A stretch of DNA of 64,000 bases. It comes from Sinorhizobium alkalisoli (GTDB lineage Bacteria; Pseudomonadota; Alphaproteobacteria; Rhizobiales; Rhizobiaceae). The translations under genes were made by a program, and so were the position numbers. Below the pieces are notes generated by a model. That model was given only the letters and a program-made list of their open reading frames with translations. It did no database searches and was not told the origin of the DNA. Where the stretch lies: assembly GCF_008932245.1 (NCBI RefSeq), contig NZ_CP034910.1:310001-374000 (forward strand). Reading direction: 5' to 3'. Below are positions 40,891-50,589 of the stretch, piece after piece. Within the stretch, counting starts at the first letter, position 1. Every line of letters starts with the position of its first letter.

Positions 40891-41433
40891 TCTGAAGCGA
40901 CGTGCTTTCCGACATGTCCGGAAACGAAAAGCAGAGTCGGTCTCAGGCGGCGCTATTGCAACAACGCTGCACGTAAATCCGAGCGGCGAAGCTGATTATC
41001 TGAACCGAGCAGGCAAGGCGCTCTGCGCAGTCACGGCCCGAAGAGGCGGCGATCCCAGTAAACCGGGTGATGAAGACTGCCCTGAATTTCAGGGAACTCC
41101 GAATGAGCTGGATTTATCAGAATATTGCGGTCGAGTCGGGCGACAACACTGGGGACCAGCAAGATCACGCTCCTCCTTTCGAGACACCATTGCTCGCCAA
41201 ATCCCTTGCGGGCACAAGCGTCACATCGCCGCCGGCACACTCGATTGGTGATCGGCCTCGTGACTCACATCGCCCATATTCAACAGTCGCGACGGCACCG
41301 TTGATCAACCGAAACGCGTCCACGTCCGCATTCCGCAGCAACTTTCCCGCAACGCAGCAATTCCGCCCGTCCTCCGCCCGTGCTACGAAGGGAAAACTGG
41401 CGTCCGCCGGCAATCCGAGAGAACCGAGGCAAT
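40891..41433. other. intergenic, presumed promoter of permease-kinase gene
   Basis: About 540 nt without a supportable gene. The last part before 41434 should hold the promoter of the permease-kinase gene, but I could not assign hexamers or an operator. Confidence 0.4.
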
Positions 41434-44400
41434 ATGGCGGCACGCCAGCGCATCATTCCCGTTCGACGCGAATATAATCGCTGGGTCGCCAACCAGACGC
41501 TTGAGGACTATGCGCTGCGCTTCACCGCGAAAGGCGCACGGCGCTTCTCCTCCGAGCGCATCTCGCAGACGGCGATCGGCGCCATCTCCTTTCTCGCGCT
41601 GGAGGCGATCGGCGGCGCCATCACCATGTCCTACGGCACCACCAATGCGATCGTTGCGATCCTGGTGGCGAGCCTGATGATCCTCCTGGTCGGCCTGCCG
41701 ATCAGCCGCTACGCCATTCGCTACGGGGTGGACATCGACCTTCTGACGCGCGGCGCAAGCTTCGGCTATATCGGCTCCACCATCACCTCGCTCGTCTATG
41801 CCAGCTTCACCTTCATCCTCTTTGCGATCGAGGCCTCGATCATGTCGGGCGCGCTGGAGCTCGCGCTTGGGCTACCGCTCTGGATCGGCTACATCGTCAG
41901 CGCCGTCGTCGTGATCCCGCTGGTCACCCACGGCGTCCGGCTGATCAGCAAGTTCCAGCTTGCCACCCAGCCCTTCTGGATCGTGCTCAACATCCTGCCC
42001 TTCGCCTTCATCGCGCTTGCCGATTGGGAGAAGGTGGGCCTCTGGCTTTCCTATGCCGGCCTCCGGCATACTTCCGGGCCCGTAGGTACCCTCGCCCCCT
42101 TCGATCTCCTCGAATTCGGCGCCGCCTCCGCGGTCATTTTCGCCCTCATGGCGCAGATCGGCGAACAGGTGGACTTCCTGCGCTTCCTGCCTCCGGACGG
42201 CCAGCGCAAGCTGCACCATCGGATCGGCGTCTTCCTCGCCGGCGCCGGCTGGGTCGTCCTCGGCGCGCCGAAGCTCCTCGCCGGCTCTTTCCTCGTCGTG
42301 CTGGCGCTGAGCTCCGGCGTGCCTTCGACCCGCGCCGCCGATCCGGCGCAGATGTATTACACCGCCTTCGGCTACATCTTTCCGTCGGAAACGGCGGCCC
42401 TGCTCCTGATGGTCGCCTTTGTGGTCATCTCGCAGCTGAAGATCAACGTGATGAACGCCTATGCCGGGTCGCTCGCCTGGTCGAACTTCTTTTCGCGGTT
42501 GACCCACAGCCATCCCGGCCGCGTCATCTGGCTCGTCTTCAACGTGGCGATCGCGCTTCTCCTCATGGAACTCGGCATCTATCGGCTGCTCGAGGAGACG
42601 CTCGGCATCTTCTCCATCATCGCCATGGCCTGGCTTTGCTCGATCTCGGCCGACCTCTTCGTCAACAAGCCGCTCGGCCTGTCACCCCCCGGGATCGAAT
42701 TCAAGCGTGCCCATCTCTACGACATAAACCCCGTCGGCATCGGCGCGATGGGCGTTTCGGCGCTTCTCGCACTCGTCGCGCATTTCGGCGCACTCGGGGC
42801 GACCGCCGCCTCGCTTGCGCCCTATATCGCACTCATCACCGCCTTCATCGTCTCGCCGCTGATTGCCTGGTGGACGGACGGCAAGTTCTACCTCGCCCGC
42901 AAGCCGCGCAAGAGCTGGTTCCGCGAAAGCGAAATCACCTGCTCGATCTGCGAGCACCCGTTCGAGCCCGAGGACATGGCCTGGTGCCCGGCCTATGCGG
43001 CGCCGATCTGTTCGCTCTGCTGTTCGCTCGACAGCCGCTGTCACGACATGTGCAAGCCGAAGGCACGGCTGAACACGCAAATCGCAACCGTCGCCAAGAC
43101 GCTGCTGCCGGAGCCGGTCGTCGAAAGGCTCGCCACCCGCCTTGGCCGCTACGCGATCGCCGCCATCCTGTCGATCGCCGGCATCGGCGTCATTCTGGCG
43201 ATGATCGCGCACCAGACGACCGCAGCCCAGCCCGAGACCGCCGAAGTGGTCGAGCGGACGATCGCGATCGTCTTCTTCGTCTTTGCGATCGCCGCGGGCG
43301 TCGTCTCCTGGTTCTATGTGCTCGCCCATGACAGCCGCGTCGTGGCCGAAGAAGAATCCTCCCGCCAGAACACGCTACTCCTGAAGGAAATCGCCGCCCA
43401 CAAGAAGACCGACGCGGCGCTGCAGAACGCCAAGGAGGCGGCGGAGGCGGCGAACCGCGCCAAGAGCCGTTATGTCGTCGGCCTCAGCCACGAACTGCGC
43501 ACGCCGCTGAATGCGGTTCTCGGCTATGCCCAGATCCTCGAGCGCGACGAGACCATCCCGCCTGCCCGGCAAGGGGCGATCAAGGCGATCCGGCGCAGCG
43601 CCGACCACCTCTCGGGCCTGATCGACGGCTTGCTCGACATTTCCAAGATCGAGGCTGGCAAGCTGCAGGTCTATTCGAACGAGATCGATGTCCACGACTT
43701 CCTCGACCAGATCGTCGACATGTTCCACCCGCAGGCCCAAGCCAAGGGCGTCGCCTTCGAGCACAGCCGGGCCCCGTCGCTGCCGCAATATGTGCGCACC
43801 GACGAGAAGCGGCTCCGGCAGATTCTCGTCAACCTGCTGTCCAACGCCCTGAAATTCACCGATCGAGGCCGCATCCGCTTGGACGTCGCCTATCGAAGCC
43901 AGGTGGCGGCATTCACCATCGAGGACAGCGGCCGCGGCATCAGCGACAAGGACCTGCCGAAGATCTTCGAACCCTTCCAACGCGGCGATGCGGAATATCG
44001 CATGCCGGGGCTCGGTCTCGGCTTGACGATCACCCGCCTGCTCACCCAGACGCTCGGCGGTGAAATCTCCGTGGTGAGCGAGAAGGACAAGGGCACCGCC
44101 TTCAAGGTGAGGCTGATGCTCTCGGCCGTCGACCGGCCGGCGGCGCTCAAGGATCCGGTGCGCAGGATCAGGTCCTACAAGGGCGCGCGCCGGACAATTC
44201 TGGTCGTCGACGACAACCAGGACCACCGCGACCTCATGCGCGAAATTTTGGCGCCGCTCGATTTTACGGTGATTGCAGCGGCAAGCGGCGCCGAGTGCCT
44301 GGCGCTCGTCGAAGCCGTCAAGGCCGATCTGTTCCTGATCGACATAACCATGCCCGGCATCAATGGCTGGGAACTAGTGACGAGGCTCAGAGAAGCCGGC

Positions 44401-44814
44401 CAGACGGCGCCGGTGATCATGCTCTCGGCCAATATCGGCGACGGCTCGGCGGCCGCCGCCATCGGCCACAACGACACGCTTGCCAAGCCCTTCGGCGTGC
44501 GCCAGCTCACCGACAAGCTGGCGATCCACCTCAAGCTCGACTGGATCTACGAGGACGATGCAAGGCACACGCCGGACCCGGGGAAGACCGGCGCGGTGAG
44601 GAGCCCCGGCGACCATCACGTGAAGGAATTGATCCGGCTCGGCGAAATCGGCTACGTCAGAGGCATCGAGGCGAAGCTGACGGAGATTGCCCTGAACCCG
44701 GAGAACCAGCCCTTTGCCGAGGCCGTCAGCGCCTTTGTCGAGGCCTTCGACCTCGCCGGCTACGACGCCCTCCTGAAACGGATGTTGCCCGAGGAGGCGA
44801 ATAGCCGTGACTGA
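41434..44814 (+). CDS. NCS1-type permease fused to hybrid histidine kinase
   Basis: The 1126-residue protein has five parts. Residues 1-485 resemble an NCS1 (purine/cytosine/allantoin) permease: NRWVANQTLEDYALRFTAKG, ISQTAIGAISFLALEAIGG, about twelve membrane helices. Residues 500-542 are a cysteine cluster with Cys503, 506, 518, 526, 529, 530, 536 and 540. Two more membrane helices and a coiled linker follow. The kinase has the H-box VGLSHELRTPLNAVLGYAQI (His686), N-box LLSNALKFTDRG and GLGLGLTI. A receiver has phospho-Asp970 (DLFLIDITMPGINGWEL). About 90 C-terminal residues are helical. It probably senses a transported or bound ligand and passes phosphate to the LuxR-type regulator encoded next. 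ATG 41434 follows GAGG closely; the frame extends to 41380. Confidence 0.88.
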   Translation: MAARQRIIPVRREYNRWVANQTLEDYALRFTAKGARRFSSERISQTAIGAISFLALEAIGGAITMSYGTTNAIVAILVASLMILLVGLPISRYAIRYGVDIDLLTRGASFGYIGSTITSLVYASFTFILFAIEASIMSGALELALGLPLWIGYIVSAVVVIPLVTHGVRLISKFQLATQPFWIVLNILPFAFIALADWEKVGLWLSYAGLRHTSGPVGTLAPFDLLEFGAASAVIFALMAQIGEQVDFLRFLPPDGQRKLHHRIGVFLAGAGWVVLGAPKLLAGSFLVVLALSSGVPSTRAADPAQMYYTAFGYIFPSETAALLLMVAFVVISQLKINVMNAYAGSLAWSNFFSRLTHSHPGRVIWLVFNVAIALLLMELGIYRLLEETLGIFSIIAMAWLCSISADLFVNKPLGLSPPGIEFKRAHLYDINPVGIGAMGVSALLALVAHFGALGATAASLAPYIALITAFIVSPLIAWWTDGKFYLARKPRKSWFRESEITCSICEHPFEPEDMAWCPAYAAPICSLCCSLDSRCHDMCKPKARLNTQIATVAKTLLPEPVVERLATRLGRYAIAAILSIAGIGVILAMIAHQTTAAQPETAEVVERTIAIVFFVFAIAAGVVSWFYVLAHDSRVVAEEESSRQNTLLLKEIAAHKKTDAALQNAKEAAEAANRAKSRYVVGLSHELRTPLNAVLGYAQILERDETIPPARQGAIKAIRRSADHLSGLIDGLLDISKIEAGKLQVYSNEIDVHDFLDQIVDMFHPQAQAKGVAFEHSRAPSLPQYVRTDEKRLRQILVNLLSNALKFTDRGRIRLDVAYRSQVAAFTIEDSGRGISDKDLPKIFEPFQRGDAEYRMPGLGLGLTITRLLTQTLGGEISVVSEKDKGTAFKVRLMLSAVDRPAALKDPVRRIRSYKGARRTILVVDDNQDHRDLMREILAPLDFTVIAAASGAECLALVEAVKADLFLIDITMPGINGWELVTRLREAGQTAPVIMLSANIGDGSAAAAIGHNDTLAKPFGVRQLTDKLAIHLKLDWIYEDDARHTPDPGKTGAVRSPGDHHVKELIRLGEIGYVRGIEAKLTEIALNPENQPFAEAVSAFVEAFDLAGYDALLKRMLPEEANSRD

Positions 44815-45727
44815 CGCGAACCCGCGCGACATTGTCCTGCTCGTCGATGATTCTCCCGAGGCGCTCGGCTTCCTGACCGAGGCGCTGGAACAGTCCGGCT
44901 TCTCGGTGTTGATCGCCACCTCAGGCAATGCCGCGCTCAATATCGCCGACCGCATCACCCCCGATATCATCCTTCTCGATGCGGTCATGCCCGGCATGGA
45001 CGGATTCGAAACCTGCATACGGCTGAAGGCGAATGCATCCGTTGCCCAGGTGCCGGTGGTGTTCATGACGGGGCTGACGGAGACGGAGCATGTCGTGCAC
45101 GCGCTGGAAGCGGGCGGCGTCGACTATCTTACGAAGCCGATCAACATCGACGAGTTGCGCGCCCGCATGCGCGTCCACCTTTCGAACGCCCGCTCCGCCC
45201 AGAGCGCCCGCGTCGCGCTCGATGCCGCCGGGCGACATCTGCTGGCCGTGCGCGGCGACGGCACCCTGCGCTGGTCGACGCCGCAGGCGACCCGCCTCGT
45301 CAACGCCGCCACCGGCAGCGACGATGGCCTCGCCGTCGTCGCCGGCCGCATCGCCGCATGGTTGCGGGAGCGCGAAGGACGGGCCGGCGAAAGGCAGGGC
45401 AGCGTCACGCTGCAGCAGGCGGGCCAGACGGGCCTGCAGATTTCCTATCTCGGCGCCATCGGCGCCAATGAATATCTATTCCGGCTGACGGCCGAGAACG
45501 GCATGAGCGACGACGAGATGCTGCGCCAGCATTTCCATCTGACCCAGCGGGAATCCGAGGTGCTGCTCTGGATCGCCAAGGGCAAGGCGAACCGCGACAT
45601 CGGCGAGATACTGGGGTTGAGCGCCCGCACCGTCACCAAGCATCTCGAACAGATCTATGTGAAGCTCGGCGTCGAAAACCGGGCCTCCGCCGCCGTCAAG
45701 GCGACCCAGGTGCTGCACGGCATTTGA
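44807..45727 (+). CDS. LuxR-type response regulator coupled to permease-kinase
   Basis: The 306-residue protein has a receiver (IVLLVDDSPEALGFLTEALE; phospho-Asp in IILLDAVMPGMDGFET; Lys in VDYLTKPI), a middle of about 100 residues without recognised motif (ARSAQSARVALDAAGRHLLA onward), and a C-terminal LuxR helix-turn-helix: LTQRESEVLLWIAKGKANRD, IGEILGLSARTVTKHLEQIY. It starts with GTG inside the end of the kinase gene (8-nt overlap), so it is the partner regulator. Targets are unknown. Confidence 0.87.
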   Translation: MTDANPRDIVLLVDDSPEALGFLTEALEQSGFSVLIATSGNAALNIADRITPDIILLDAVMPGMDGFETCIRLKANASVAQVPVVFMTGLTETEHVVHALEAGGVDYLTKPINIDELRARMRVHLSNARSAQSARVALDAAGRHLLAVRGDGTLRWSTPQATRLVNAATGSDDGLAVVAGRIAAWLREREGRAGERQGSVTLQQAGQTGLQISYLGAIGANEYLFRLTAENGMSDDEMLRQHFHLTQRESEVLLWIAKGKANRDIGEILGLSARTVTKHLEQIYVKLGVENRASAAVKATQVLHGI

Positions 45728-45803: not shown

Positions 45804-47129
45804 TTACTCCGCTGGCTGGACCACCGCCGGAATGGTTTCGACCGGGGCGTCGCCTGCGAGTGCGACGGAAAGCTGCGCCTGATCAAGCTCGCCTTCCCAC
45901 TTCGCCACCACCAGCGTCGCTACTGCATTACCGATAAAATTGGTAATTGCGCGGCACTCGGACATGAAACGGTCGATGCCGAGGATCAGCGCCATGCCGG
46001 CGACCGGAACCGCCGGAACGACAGAGAGGGTGGCGGCAAGCGTGATGAAGCCGGCGCCGGTGATGCCGGCCGCCCCCTTCGAGCTCAGCATGGCGACGAG
46101 CAGCAGCAGAATCTGGTCGGCAAAGGAGAGCGGCGTGTCAGTCGCCTGGGCAATGAAGAGCGCCGCAAGCGTCATGTAGATGTTGGTGCCGTCGAGGTTG
46201 AAGGAATAGCCCGTCGGGATAACCAGGCCTACGACGGAGCGCTTGCAGCCCGCCTTCTCCATCTTGTTCATCAGGCCCGGAAGTGCCGCCTCGGAAGACG
46301 ACGTCCCGAGGACGAGCAGCAGCTCTTCCTTGATATAGCGGATGAGCGAGACGATCGAGAAGCCGTTGTAGCGGGCAACCGCGCCGAGCACGAGGAAGAT
46401 GAACAGGAACGAGGTCAGATAGAAGGTGCCGATCAGCATGGCGAGGTTGGCGATCGAGGCGAGGCCGTACTTGCCGATGGTGAAGGCCATGGCGCCGAAG
46501 GCCCCGATCGGGGCGGCCTTCATCAGGATCGCCACCAGCCGGAAGATCGGCAGCGTCAGCGCCTGCAGGAAATCGACGACCGGCTCGGCCTTCTTGCCGA
46601 CCATCGCCAGCGAAATGCCGAAGAGCACCGAGATGAACAGCACCTGCAGAATGTCGCCCTCGGCAAAGGCGCCGACGAGCGTCGTCGGGATGACGTTCAT
46701 GAGGAAGCCGGTGATCGACTGCTCATGCGCCTTTTCCGCATAGCCGGTGACCGCCTTGGCATCGAGCGAGGCGGGGTCGATATGCATGCCGGAACCCGGC
46801 TGCACCACATTGGCGACCACGAGACCGACAAGGAGCGCCAGCGTCGAGAAGGTCAGGAAGTAGATCATCGCCTTTCCGGCGACGCGGCCGACCTTGGCGA
46901 GATCGGTCATGCCGGCGATGCCGGTCGCGACCGTCAGGAAGATCACCGGCGCGATGATCATCTTGACGAGCTTGATGAAGGCGTCGCCGAACGGCTTCAA
47001 CTCGGTACCGATGCCGGGATAGAAATGCCCGAGCAGGATGCCCGCGGCGATCGCCGCCAGGACCTGGACATAGAGATGGCGATAGATGGGTGTCGTGCCG
47101 CGGGCTTCCGCGGAATGTTCTATGATCAT
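45804..47129 (-). CDS. dctA: C4-dicarboxylate transport protein DctA
   Basis: The 441-residue protein is the sodium/proton-coupled importer of succinate, malate and fumarate in the inner membrane (DAACS family), essential for feeding bacteroids in nodulating rhizobia. Landmarks: [20 protein letters not shown] at the start, the serine-rich hairpin [20 protein letters not shown], the substrate-binding helix [20 protein letters not shown], and [25 protein letters not shown] lies 5 nt before ATG 47129, and this start gives the length known for the rhizobial protein. Transcription starts from the sigma54 promoter upstream, activated by DctD. Confidence 0.97.
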
Positions 47130-47223
47130 GATATCCTCCACATGGCGCCCAGTCCGGCGATTGCCGGGCCTCCCGGGCCGCTTTTCCGAAGATCGACAGC
47201 TGCTGCCGCCTTGTGAGCTATTT

Positions 47224-47240
47224 AGCAACGCGCGTGCCAG
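47224..47240 (-). promoter_or_regulatory. sigma54 (-24/-12) promoter of dctA
   Basis: On the minus strand CTGGCACGCGCGTTGCT fits the sigma54 consensus TGGCAC-N5-TTGCW with the GG and GC pairs correctly spaced. The dctA ATG is about 95 nt downstream. Confidence 0.92.
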
Positions 47241-47310
47241 TTCTGTGCGGCACCGCGAGATAGTTGAAATCGCTTGCATTTTCTTTGTGCTTCACAATTC
47301 TGCACTCCTT

Positions 47311-47334
47311 ACCTGTGCGGATATCCGCACAGGT
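47311..47334. promoter_or_regulatory. DctD upstream activator site
   Basis: A perfect 24-bp palindrome whose left arm is ACCTGTGCGGAT. It contains TGTGC-N8-GCACA, the DctD-binding pattern, and lies about 75-110 nt upstream of the sigma54 promoter. It also lies 24 nt before the dctB start. A half-site TGTGCGG recurs at 47245-47251 near the promoter and may be the second, weaker site. Confidence 0.85.
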
Positions 47335-47357
47335 CCACTGGCGCTTTGCGCGAAAAC

Positions 47358-49223
47358 ATGCACAATGGCGCGATGTTCAAGAAACTGTCCGGCACGGACG
47401 ATCTGCGAACGCTTCGCCGCCGCGCGCGGCGGTCGTGGCTTGTTTTCGCAGCGGTGGCGCTTGCCGTTCTGGCGGCCGGCCTTTTACTTGCCGGCGAATA
47501 CGGCCGGACGAGAGCGCTTGCGGGGATCGACTCGCAAAGCCGCATCGACGCCAGCTTGAAGGCGTCGCTCTTGAGGGCCGTCATCGAACGGCAGCGCGCG
47601 CTTCCATTGGTTCTTGCCGATGATTCCGCCATTCGCGAAGCCCTTCGCTCCGCGGACGAACAATCGCTCGACCGGATCAACCGCAAGCTCGAGAGCCTGG
47701 CGGCAAGTGCGGAAACGGCGGTCGTCTATCTGATCGGGCAGAATGGTGTCGCCGTCGCCGCCAGCAATTGGCGGGAGCCGACGAGCTTCGTCGGCAGCAA
47801 TTACGGCTTTCGCGACTATTTCCGGTTGGCAATGCGCGACGGCAAGGCCGAGCATTTCGCCCTGGGCACGGTCAGCAGGCAGCCCGGTCTCTACATTTCC
47901 CGACGGATCGACGGGGCGGACGGACCGCTCGGCGTGATCGTCGCCAAACTCGAATTCGACGGTCTCGAAACCGACTGGCGCGTCTCGGACAAGCCGACCT
48001 ATGTCACCGACCGCCGCGGCATCGTGCTGATCACCAGCCTGCCGTCGTGGCGCTTCATGACGACGAAGCCAATCGCCGAAGACCGGCTCGCCGCCATCCG
48101 CGAAAGCCTGCAATTCGGCGATGCTCCCCTGCTGCCGCTGCCCTTCGACAAGGTCGAAGCGCGGCCCGACGGCTCCTCTACGCTCGACGCCCTGCTGCCA
48201 GGCGGCGGCGCTGGAGCCTTCCTGCGCGTCGAGACCATGGTGCCATCGACGAACTGGCGGCTCGAGCTGCTGTCGCCGCTGACTGCCCCGCTCGCGGCCG
48301 GCGCGCGGGAAGCACGGCTGATCCTGCTCGCGGTTCTCGTGCCGCTCTTCGGGCTCGCAGCCTTCCTCCTGCGCCGCCGCCAGGCGATCGCGATGCGGTC
48401 GGCGGCCGAGCGGCTGAGAGCCAGGGAACTCGAAGGGAAAGTGGCGGAACGAACGCGCGATCTCAGCATGGCCCGCGACCGCCTCGAAACCGAGATCGCC
48501 GATCATCGCCAGACGACGGAAAAGCTGCAGGCCGTGCAGCAGGATCTCGTGCAGGCGAACCGCCTGGCGATCCTCGGCCAAGTCGCCGCCGGCGTCGCCC
48601 ACGAGATCAACCAGCCGGTCGCCACGATCCGTGCCTATGCCGACAATGCCCGCACCTTTCTCGATCGCGGCCAGAGCGCGACCGCGGCGGAGAACATGGA
48701 GTGCATTGCCGAACTCACCGACCGGGTCGGCGCCATCACCGAGGAACTGCGCCGCTTTGCCCGCAAGGGCCATTTTGCCGCCGAGCCGACGCCGATGAAG
48801 AATGTCATCGAGGGCGCGCTCATGCTTCTGCGCAGCCGCTTTGCCGGGCGCATGGACGCGATCCGGATCGCGCTGCCGCCGGACGGATTAAGGGCGCTCG
48901 GCAATCGCATCCGGCTGGAGCAGGTGCTGATCAATCTGCTGCAGAACGCGCTGGAAGCGATCGGCAGCGGCGACGGCGGCACGATCGAGGTGCGCTGCGA
49001 GGAGACGGCCAACGGCGTCACGCTCACCGTCACCGACAACGGCCCCGGCATTCCGGCCGATATTCGCGAGGAACTGTTCACGCCCTTCAACACCTCGAAG
49101 GAGGAGGGTCTCGGGCTGGGCCTGGCGATCTCCAAGGAAATCGTTTCCGACTATGGCGGCACGATCGAGGTCGAAAGCGGCTCCACCGGCACGACATTCA
49201 CCGTCCTCTTGCAGAAGGCTTGA
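47358..49223 (+). CDS. dctB: C4-dicarboxylate sensor histidine kinase DctB
   Basis: The 621-residue membrane kinase has a first helix at about residues 20-43 ([20 protein letters not shown]). A periplasmic tandem-PAS sensor follows ([60 protein letters not shown]), then a second helix ([18 protein letters not shown]). The coiled linker precedes the H-box [20 protein letters not shown]; the ATPase has [16 protein letters not shown] and DNGPGIP. It detects C4-dicarboxylates and phosphorylates DctD. ATG 47358 gives the usual length; an ATG at 47373 is possible. Confidence 0.95.
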
Positions 49224-49227
49224 ACTA

Positions 49228-50589
49228 ATGAGCGGCGCCGTGTTCCTGATCGACGACGACCGAGACCTGCGCAAGGCGATGCAGCAGACCTTGGAGCTTG
49301 CCGGCTTCACCGTCTCGCCCTTTGCCAGCGCAACCGAAGCGTTCGAAGCACTCAACCCAGACTTCGACGGCGTGATCGTCAGCGATATCCGCATGCCGGG
49401 CATGGACGGGCTGGCCTTGTTCCGCAAGGTCGCCAGCCTCGACCCGGACCTGCCCGTCATCCTCGTGACCGGCCACGGCGACATACCGATGGCGGTACAG
49501 GCGATTCAGGACGGCGCCTATGACTTCATCGCCAAGCCCTTCGCCGCCGACCGGCTGGTGCAGAGCGCGCGGCGCGCCGACGAGAAGCGCCGGCTCGTCA
49601 TGGAAAACCGGGGGCTGCGCCAGGCGGCGGAAGCCGCCGCCGACAGCCTGCCGCTGATCGGCCAGACGCTGGTGATGGAACGGCTGCGCCAGACGCTCAA
49701 ACACATCGCCGACACCGATGTCGACGTGCTCATCGCCGGCGAAACCGGCAGCGGCAAGGAGGTCGTGGCGACGCTCCTGCACCAGTGGAGCCGGCGCAGG
49801 ACCGGCAATTTCGTGGCGCTGAATTGCGGCGCCCTGCCGGAGACGGTGATCGAGAGCGAACTCTTCGGCCATGAGCCCGGCGCCTTCACCGGCGCCGTCA
49901 AGAAGCGCATCGGCCGGATCGAACATGCGAGCGGCGGCACGCTCTTCCTCGACGAGATCGAGGCGATGCCGCCGGCGACCCAGGTCAAGATGCTGCGCGT
50001 TCTGGAAGCGCGCGAGATCACCCCGCTCGGTACCAATATCGTTCGGCCCGTGGACATCCGCGTCGTCGCGGCGGCAAAGATCGATCTCGGCGATCCGGCC
50101 GAGCGCGGCGACTTCCGCGAGGACCTCTACTATCGGCTGAACGTCGTGACGCTGTCGATCCCGCCCTTGCGCGAACGCCGTGAGGACATCCCGCTGCTCT
50201 TCTCGCACTTCCTGAAGCGCGCCGCCGAACGCTTCGGCCGCGACATGCCGGACATCCCGGCCGCCGTCCGCGACCACCTGATGTCGCACCCCTGGCCCGG
50301 CAATGTGCGCGAACTTTCGCATTTCGCCGAGCGGGTGGCTTTGGGCGTGGCGGAGATGCCGGCCGGGAAACCCGCCGCCCCGGAAAATGGCGGCACCCTG
50401 CCCGAACGGCTGGAGCGCTACGAGGCGGACATCCTCAGGCAGGCGCTGACGGCAAACAACGGTGACGTCAAGGAGACCCTGCTGGCACTCGGAATTCCCC
50501 GCAAGACCTTCTACGACAAGCTCCAGCGCCACGGCATCAATCGCGCGAACTATGCCGGGCGAGACTCCGCGAAGGATGGAAGCGTTTAG
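49228..50589 (+). CDS. dctD: sigma54-dependent response regulator DctD
   Basis: The 453-residue protein has a receiver ([20 protein letters not shown]; phospho-Asp in [14 protein letters not shown]), an AAA+ domain (Walker A GETGSGKE, sigma54-contact loop [15 protein letters not shown], Walker [14 protein letters not shown]) and a Fis-type helix-turn-helix ([20 protein letters not shown]). When phosphorylated by DctB it binds the palindrome before dctA and drives open-complex formation. It follows dctB by 4 nt, with AGAAGG inside the dctB end. Confidence 0.95.

Follow-up and report, generated by a model that had tools for sequence, protein, structure and literature searches.

The window analysed here, 64,000 nucleotides of Sinorhizobium alkalisoli DNA (contig NZ_CP034910.1, positions 310001-374000, which is contig 2 of genome G000 in our numbering), carries on its plus strand two overlapping genes, one for a transporter-like membrane domain fused to a histidine kinase and one for a response regulator. 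The kinase gene extends from an ATG at 41434 to 44814 and encodes 1126 amino acids, as indicated by the open reading frame, its translation and its homologues. A GTG at 41380 is a possible alternative start upstream; the ATG at 41434 aligns with the first start codon of the frame in several homologues. Residues 1-485 (41434..42888) form the membrane domain, hereafter the sensor domain, with 12 hydrophobic segments that a hydropathy scan placed within residues 47-473. There follow a module with eight cysteines (residues 503-540, 42940..43053), two extra membrane helices found in the same scan (residues 574-592 and 612-630, 43153..43323) and three domains recognised by Pfam: the dimerisation and phosphoacceptor domain HisKA (PF00512, residues 677-742, 43462..43659), the catalytic domain HATPase_c (PF02518, residues 789-896, 43798..44121) and a receiver domain, REC (PF00072, residues 922-1029, 44197..44520). 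The second gene (44807..45727) encodes a LuxR/NarL-type response regulator of 306 amino acids, with REC at residues 10-121 and GerE at 245-299 in Pfam, and its frame overlaps that of the kinase by 8 nucleotides. Phosphorylation residues are at the expected positions, namely His686 (codon 43489-43491) and Asp970 (codon 44341-44343) in the kinase and Asp58 in the regulator. The pair is a hybrid histidine kinase with its LuxR regulator. A sequence-only reading of this DNA had proposed an NCS1-type permease of about 485 residues, joined to a hybrid kinase through eight cysteines in 38 residues and followed by a coupled LuxR gene overlapping by 8 nucleotides, and the arrangement stands as proposed.

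Membership of the membrane domain in NCS1 was established by profile comparison. An HHalign comparison with 12 NCS1 proteins, E. coli CodB among them, gave a probability of 99.96 and an E value of 3.7e-39 over 439 columns, and in fold searches CodB and Mhp1 were the best matches, with NCS1 chains at the top of the list. The domain belongs to NCS1 and has the NCS1 variant of the LeuT fold. The Pfam model for NCS1, PF02133, gave no match in the family proteins, so that Pfam misses this membership. The SSS alternative that the sequence-only reading had kept in view found no support: SSF gave no match at E ≤ 1 in the window protein or in any of 16 members, and with NCS1 folds ranking first, a place among the SLC5/STAC kinases was rejected. 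No STAC match was obtained in the Pfam scan of the window protein, the presence of a STAC model in Pfam being unchecked. The nearest stand-alone permease found, at 28% identity, is L201, which lies (L201:6949-11984) next to a double C-N hydrolase and AmiC-like and AmiR-like proteins, all named by eye. As the nearest non-fused relative found, it is a candidate amide or ureide carrier.

The fusion is widespread. A search with residues 1-640 returned at least 8000 matches at E ≤ 1e-3, and in whole-genome searches 26 of 385 genomes from Alphaproteobacteria (the class sample) contained the domain, as did 53 of 398 from Pseudomonadota, near relatives being part of the latter sample. In the S. alkalisoli genome the domain gives a single match, and no second copy was found. 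Among the class matches, 25 of 26 have open frames of 1124-1243 amino acids; the remaining one, L027 (G326 contig 211), is a broken kinase gene with separate frames for the N-terminal and C-terminal parts, in a genome without a urtA match. The phylum set includes two matches with frames of 894 and 899 amino acids, one stand-alone permease and a few partial matches. The two shorter proteins (L202 and L203) are deep-branching sensor variants near FmdA that have all eight cysteines; no matching LuxR regulator was found in the stretch examined for either. Locus L057, on a contig titled as an Arenimonas metagenome-assembled genome, has a sensor domain 81% identical and the rhizobial gene order, and is probably a binning error. 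Some database names among the matches listed already combine the two domains ('signal transduction histidine kinase/purine-cytosine permease-like protein'), which makes the fusion apparent from existing annotation.

The eight cysteines occupy positions 503, 506, 518, 526, 529, 530, 536 and 540. In all 25 full-length class homologues (that of S. alkalisoli included, the others sharing 45-56% identity) the frame is fused and all eight cysteines are conserved, so the architecture is not due to chance. The complete pattern recurs at 105 of 105 loci (L002-L026 and L028-L107, own locus included and the broken L027 outside the count), and a looser pattern at all 35 phylum-set loci compared (L181-L216 minus L201). 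With the cysteines conserved and the membrane part not matching SSS, neither of the two conditions that the sequence-only reading had named as refuting it came about. The N-terminus of NCS1 proteins is cytoplasmic; if this holds here, the stretch 503-540 is cytoplasmic too, as is probable. Profile and fold searches found no convincing family or fold for the module. Weak profile matches were obtained to Prok-RING_1, FYVE and CRIPT (E of the best member 0.0052, 0.0099 and 0.028, respectively), and the Foldseek list was led by RING, PHD, FYVE and LIM rows at non-significant E values. C2H2 fingers, which had the lowest profile E value (3.8e-5), were set aside as matches to short CxxC stretches, none significant alone. 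The spacing of the cysteines resembles that of treble-clef or cross-brace zinc fingers, a two-zinc fold with paired CxxC ligands, the supporting matches being weak.

Gene neighbourhoods were compared at 135 loci, comprising 80 named loci, 20 from the class sample and 35 from the phylum sample, the last chosen without knowledge of their neighbours. In representative loci, matches above the NCBIfam cut-off identified UrtA to UrtE, with urease gamma and beta downstream, in Rhizobium (L035), UrtA, UrtB, UrtC and an aliphatic amidase in Bradyrhizobium (L103) and the formamidase FmdA in L103 and L100; the remaining loci were labelled by tblastn with proteins confirmed in these representatives. A frame of 281 amino acids in L035 labelled UreD had no NCBIfam match at 1e-20 and was not used for labels. 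The nearest labelled gene was of urea type (urease or urt) at 87 loci, of amide type (formamidase, amidase or amide transporter) at 42 and, within the sequence covered, of neither type at six, and all 35 fused loci of the phylum sample were linked to one type or the other. At the named loci the kinase and regulator genes are usually divergent from urtABCDE, and in 76 of the 80 urtA was found on the upstream side of the kinase gene. Of the other four, L076 and L090 have scarcely any sequence on that side or none, L082 has no urtA there, and in L104 its place is taken by a gene for an aliphatic amidase. A regulator homologue adjoins the kinase at every one of the 81 loci made up of the named set and our own. 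Within the class sample, urtA was detected in 25 of the 26 kinase-bearing genomes, against 81 of 359 others. The kinase family is strongly linked to urea and amide genes across Pseudomonadota.

Five genomes hold two fused copies. In four of them (G605, G584, G725 and G520) one copy is linked to urease and the other to formamidase, and in the fifth (G460) both copies are formamidase-linked. In a tree built from 82 sensor domains (40 urea-type, 40 amide-type and two unlabelled) the label changes six times, at least three times by well-supported branches alone, and none of 500 shuffles gave a number as low as that observed. Since labels were taken from the nearest gene, they mean linkage and not ligand. 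Residues 401, 402 and 129 rank among those that best separate the two types, Phe129 being present in 40/40 amide-type and 12/40 urea-type rows; this is a hint only, as large clades drive the separation.

A purine, pyrimidine, hydantoin or vitamin had been suggested as the ligand in the sequence-only reading; this is not supported, the linked genes being ones that handle urea or short-chain amides. We consider it likely that the pair is a two-component system for urea and, elsewhere, for short-chain amides such as formamide. As it is encoded beside genes for the import and breakdown of urea and amides across many bacteria, the fusion protein is probably the sensor and switch of these genes, those for formamide-type amides included.

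An inverted repeat, TACGT-N6-ACGTA, lies about 110 bp upstream of urtA. It was present with at most one mismatch in all 70 urtA promoters examined (59 exact, 11 with one mismatch), a set consisting of 69 linked named loci outside Bradyrhizobium/Afipia and the unlinked one of S. alkalisoli. The single urtA match of this last genome (TIGR03407, E ≤ 1e-20) is at 182552-183649 of contig 2, 168 kb from the kinase, and its product shares about 97% identity with the linked UrtA proteins of three further sinorhizobia. The only exact TACGT-N6-ACGTA in the 6.13 Mb genome is 109 bp before urtA, while a control pattern, read backwards, occurs five times. Having a urtA distant from the kinase yet carrying the repeat, this genome departs from the usual arrangement and puts the idea to the test. 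Facing its urtA in divergent orientation (L109:9939-15457) is another signalling cluster, with products named by eye: a small c-type-heme-like protein, a hybrid kinase that has HAMP and two receivers, and a protein like adenylate cyclase. In Sinorhizobium meliloti 1021 the kinase and regulator genes are at NC_003078.1:1622168-1626464; there urtA lies about 1.8 kb upstream and has an exact copy of the repeat 97 bp before it.

No site within two mismatches was found in 30 control urtA promoters, of which 25 came from genomes without a detected kinase and five from genomes with one, nor in 29 further urtA-like promoters from 17 chosen relatives. The latter include ten urtA genes (76-88% identical) of genomes of the same family or order without a detected kinase, all ten lacking the repeat. 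In rhizobia and near relatives the repeat accompanies the kinase-regulator pair, not urtA as such. A relaxed form, TACG-N8-CGTA, was present in 70/70 promoters of the main set, in 5/7 from Bradyrhizobium/Afipia and in 0/40 controls (the 30 and the ten). The same form ranked first in a de novo scan of all 4-base inverted repeats with spacers of 2-12 in 55 kinase promoters from many families, where it occurred in 27, against 0.4 in shuffles; it was found in 23/34 amide-type, 2/18 urea-type and 2/3 unlinked kinase promoters. Before UrtA2 genes the relaxed form was counted in 12/32, a figure that is unsure because a long N-terminal extension of the query shifts the start. The operator test supports control of urtA by the pair in rhizobia, not beyond.

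Two side observations concern loci without linked genes. At L082, which has no nearby urtA, an exact repeat (L082:9909-9924) precedes the kinase gene by about 90 bp. At L155 and L156, of genus g38, TACGCAAAATAACGTA lies about 195 bp before the kinase gene with no urea or amide genes nearby; these genomes carry several UrtA-like proteins elsewhere.

Several results weigh against the proposed role. Related sequences among the counted loci are not independent, and six of the 135 show no urea or amide gene in the sequence covered: L076 and L090 at contig ends, L155 and L156 from one genus, L082, and L157, where urtA is about 60 kb from the kinase. At our own locus the neighbours in the window are dct genes. 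The Pfam scan of the pair detected no phosphotransfer (HPt) domain, and the cytosine ligands of CodB, Gln105 and Trp108, align to Thr126 and Leu/Phe129. As for the repeat, the seven urtA promoters of Bradyrhizobium/Afipia have two mismatches (six) or three (one), the control L135 (genome G246) counts as kinase-linked yet has no motif, and the relaxed form is rare in urea-type kinase promoters, as counted above. At urea-type loci of the class and phylum samples the strict form (at most one mismatch) precedes 0/10 urtA and 0/13 ureA genes, and the relaxed form 1/10 and 0/13. A general operator for all urea-type members is accordingly not supported. At urea-type loci of other families the repeat does not precede urtA or ureA, so that it explains part of the picture and no more. 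The remaining urea-type members must rely on something different, or are not under this control; alignment of six urease-linked promoters of f193 revealed no common motif of the TACG form. The strict pattern also occurs somewhere in 93 of the 385 class genomes. As only eight of these belong to the 26 kinase-bearing ones, the pattern by itself has no diagnostic value.

In the mechanism that we propose, urea or an amide would bind in the substrate cavity of the NCS1-fold domain, which might still carry it, and the change between outward- and inward-facing states would be relayed to the kinase via the eight-cysteine module, probably a two-zinc, treble-clef-like structural joint, and the two extra helices. 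His686 would be phosphorylated and the phosphate passed to Asp58 of the regulator, either directly or via Asp970 and a phosphotransfer protein. The regulator of rhizobia and their near relatives would bind TACGT-N6-ACGTA before urtA and activate urtABCDE, along with urease genes where, as in many relatives, these follow downstream. A like site, TACG-N8-CGTA, is located in many lineages linked to formamidase in the promoter region of the kinase gene, which the divergent amide-transporter operon shares.

The membrane domain might instead be a working symporter of urea or amides, with transport flux and not occupancy as the signal, as discussed for CbrA; we find this possible and rather unlikely. 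The NCS1 hallmarks are conserved, Asn338 at the position of CodB Asn275 and Arg250 at that of CodB Arg216, and CbrA transports histidine (PMC7918813, PMC13022988). However, a dedicated ABC transporter for the same substrate class is often encoded alongside, and conservation of Thr278 and Thr279, the sodium ligands of CodB, is not clear in an alignment that is gapped there; in the comparison with the aromatic sandwich and sodium ligands of CodB, transmembrane helices 6 and 8 are aligned with gaps.

A combined metabolite and redox or metal sensor, in which the cysteines would hold a redox-active iron-sulfur cluster or a regulatory metal such as nickel as a second input, seems improbable. Eight conserved cysteines in a linker between sensor and kinase would suit such a role, and urease is well established as a nickel enzyme, but the cluster is equally conserved in formamidase-linked proteins, and its spacing and weak matches fit treble-clef or cross-brace zinc fingers, which is not proof of zinc. 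Given conservation whichever gene set is linked, and weak matches that are mostly to zinc fingers, we think a structural zinc site likelier than a redox or metal input.

Regulation of the adjoining C4-dicarboxylate genes directly downstream (45804-50589; dctA on the minus strand, then a kinase and a sigma-54 regulator that we take to be DctB-like and DctD-like, NCBIfam having given other two-component families, below cut-off) is very improbable and was rejected, since dctA lies beside the pair in just 4 of 81 loci (our own and three named Sinorhizobium), dctB/dctD already form a two-component pair and TACGT-N6-ACGTA is absent from the window.

The proposed urea and amide sensor has parallels among known carrier-kinase fusions. 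CbrA, CrbS/MxtR and RpuS are SLC5/STAC histidine kinases (PMC5715377, PMC7918813, PMC9100948), and a study of such systems in Sinorhizobium fredii reported CrbS/R and RpuS/R (PMC9100948). They too join a LeuT-fold carrier domain to a histidine kinase, a hybrid kinase in MxtR/CrbS as here, and CrbR is likewise a LuxR regulator, one that depends on an imperfect inverted repeat upstream of the genes it controls (PMC5715377, PMC7918813, PMC9100948). The present family differs in that its carrier is NCS1, not SLC5, in the eight-cysteine module and two helices that lie where STAC and PAS lie in those kinases, and in its linkage to urea and amide genes, theirs being to histidine, acetate or pyruvate genes. 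Another fusion is the ammonium-transporter kinase of the Ks-Amt5 type. Here also the carrier domain of a nitrogen compound is joined to a histidine kinase, but the domain is an ammonium transporter and the signal ammonium (PMC5764959). CodB and Mhp1 resemble the membrane domain in fold and profile (PMC9379551). Unlike them, that domain is fused to a cysteine module and a kinase, and the cytosine contacts of CodB named above are not kept in the alignment. In AmiC/AmiR, a soluble amide-binding protein controls amidase together with an antiterminator. The fmd cluster of Methylophilus, for which a putative positive regulator is described, is reported to be induced by formamide and urea, which speaks for the role proposed here (PMC10781810). 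Both systems resemble the proposed one in that amides or urea control amide uptake and hydrolysis; a membrane sensor kinase takes the place of those proteins here. No description of an NCS1-kinase fusion, or of a two-component system for urea or amides with an NCS1 domain, was found in the open-licence literature, in keeping with the unfamiliarity of the fusion in the sequence-only reading. None of the known fusions found being NCS1, the family appears to be a new form of transporter-kinase fusion.

A broader interpretation, in which our belief and our doubt are evenly balanced, is that the family adds another fold class to the sensor kinases derived from transporters. Its members, found in roughly one of every eight Pseudomonadota genomes sampled, would be receptors with an NCS1 fold and a zinc-finger-like joint that detect urea and short-chain amides. 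The family would have undergone duplication and, on at least three occasions, a change between the urea and the formamide gene set, would share a TACG-N8-CGTA operator between rhizobial urea-type and many amide-type members, and would be a main sensing route for these nitrogen sources, which are of interest in soil and biotechnology. To our knowledge, the perception of urea and formamide at the bacterial membrane is poorly defined. If the proposal is true, this gap would be filled by a sensor family of wide occurrence with links to the urease and formamidase gene sets, and its paralogues with switched linkage would offer a natural system for studying how a carrier fold becomes a receptor.

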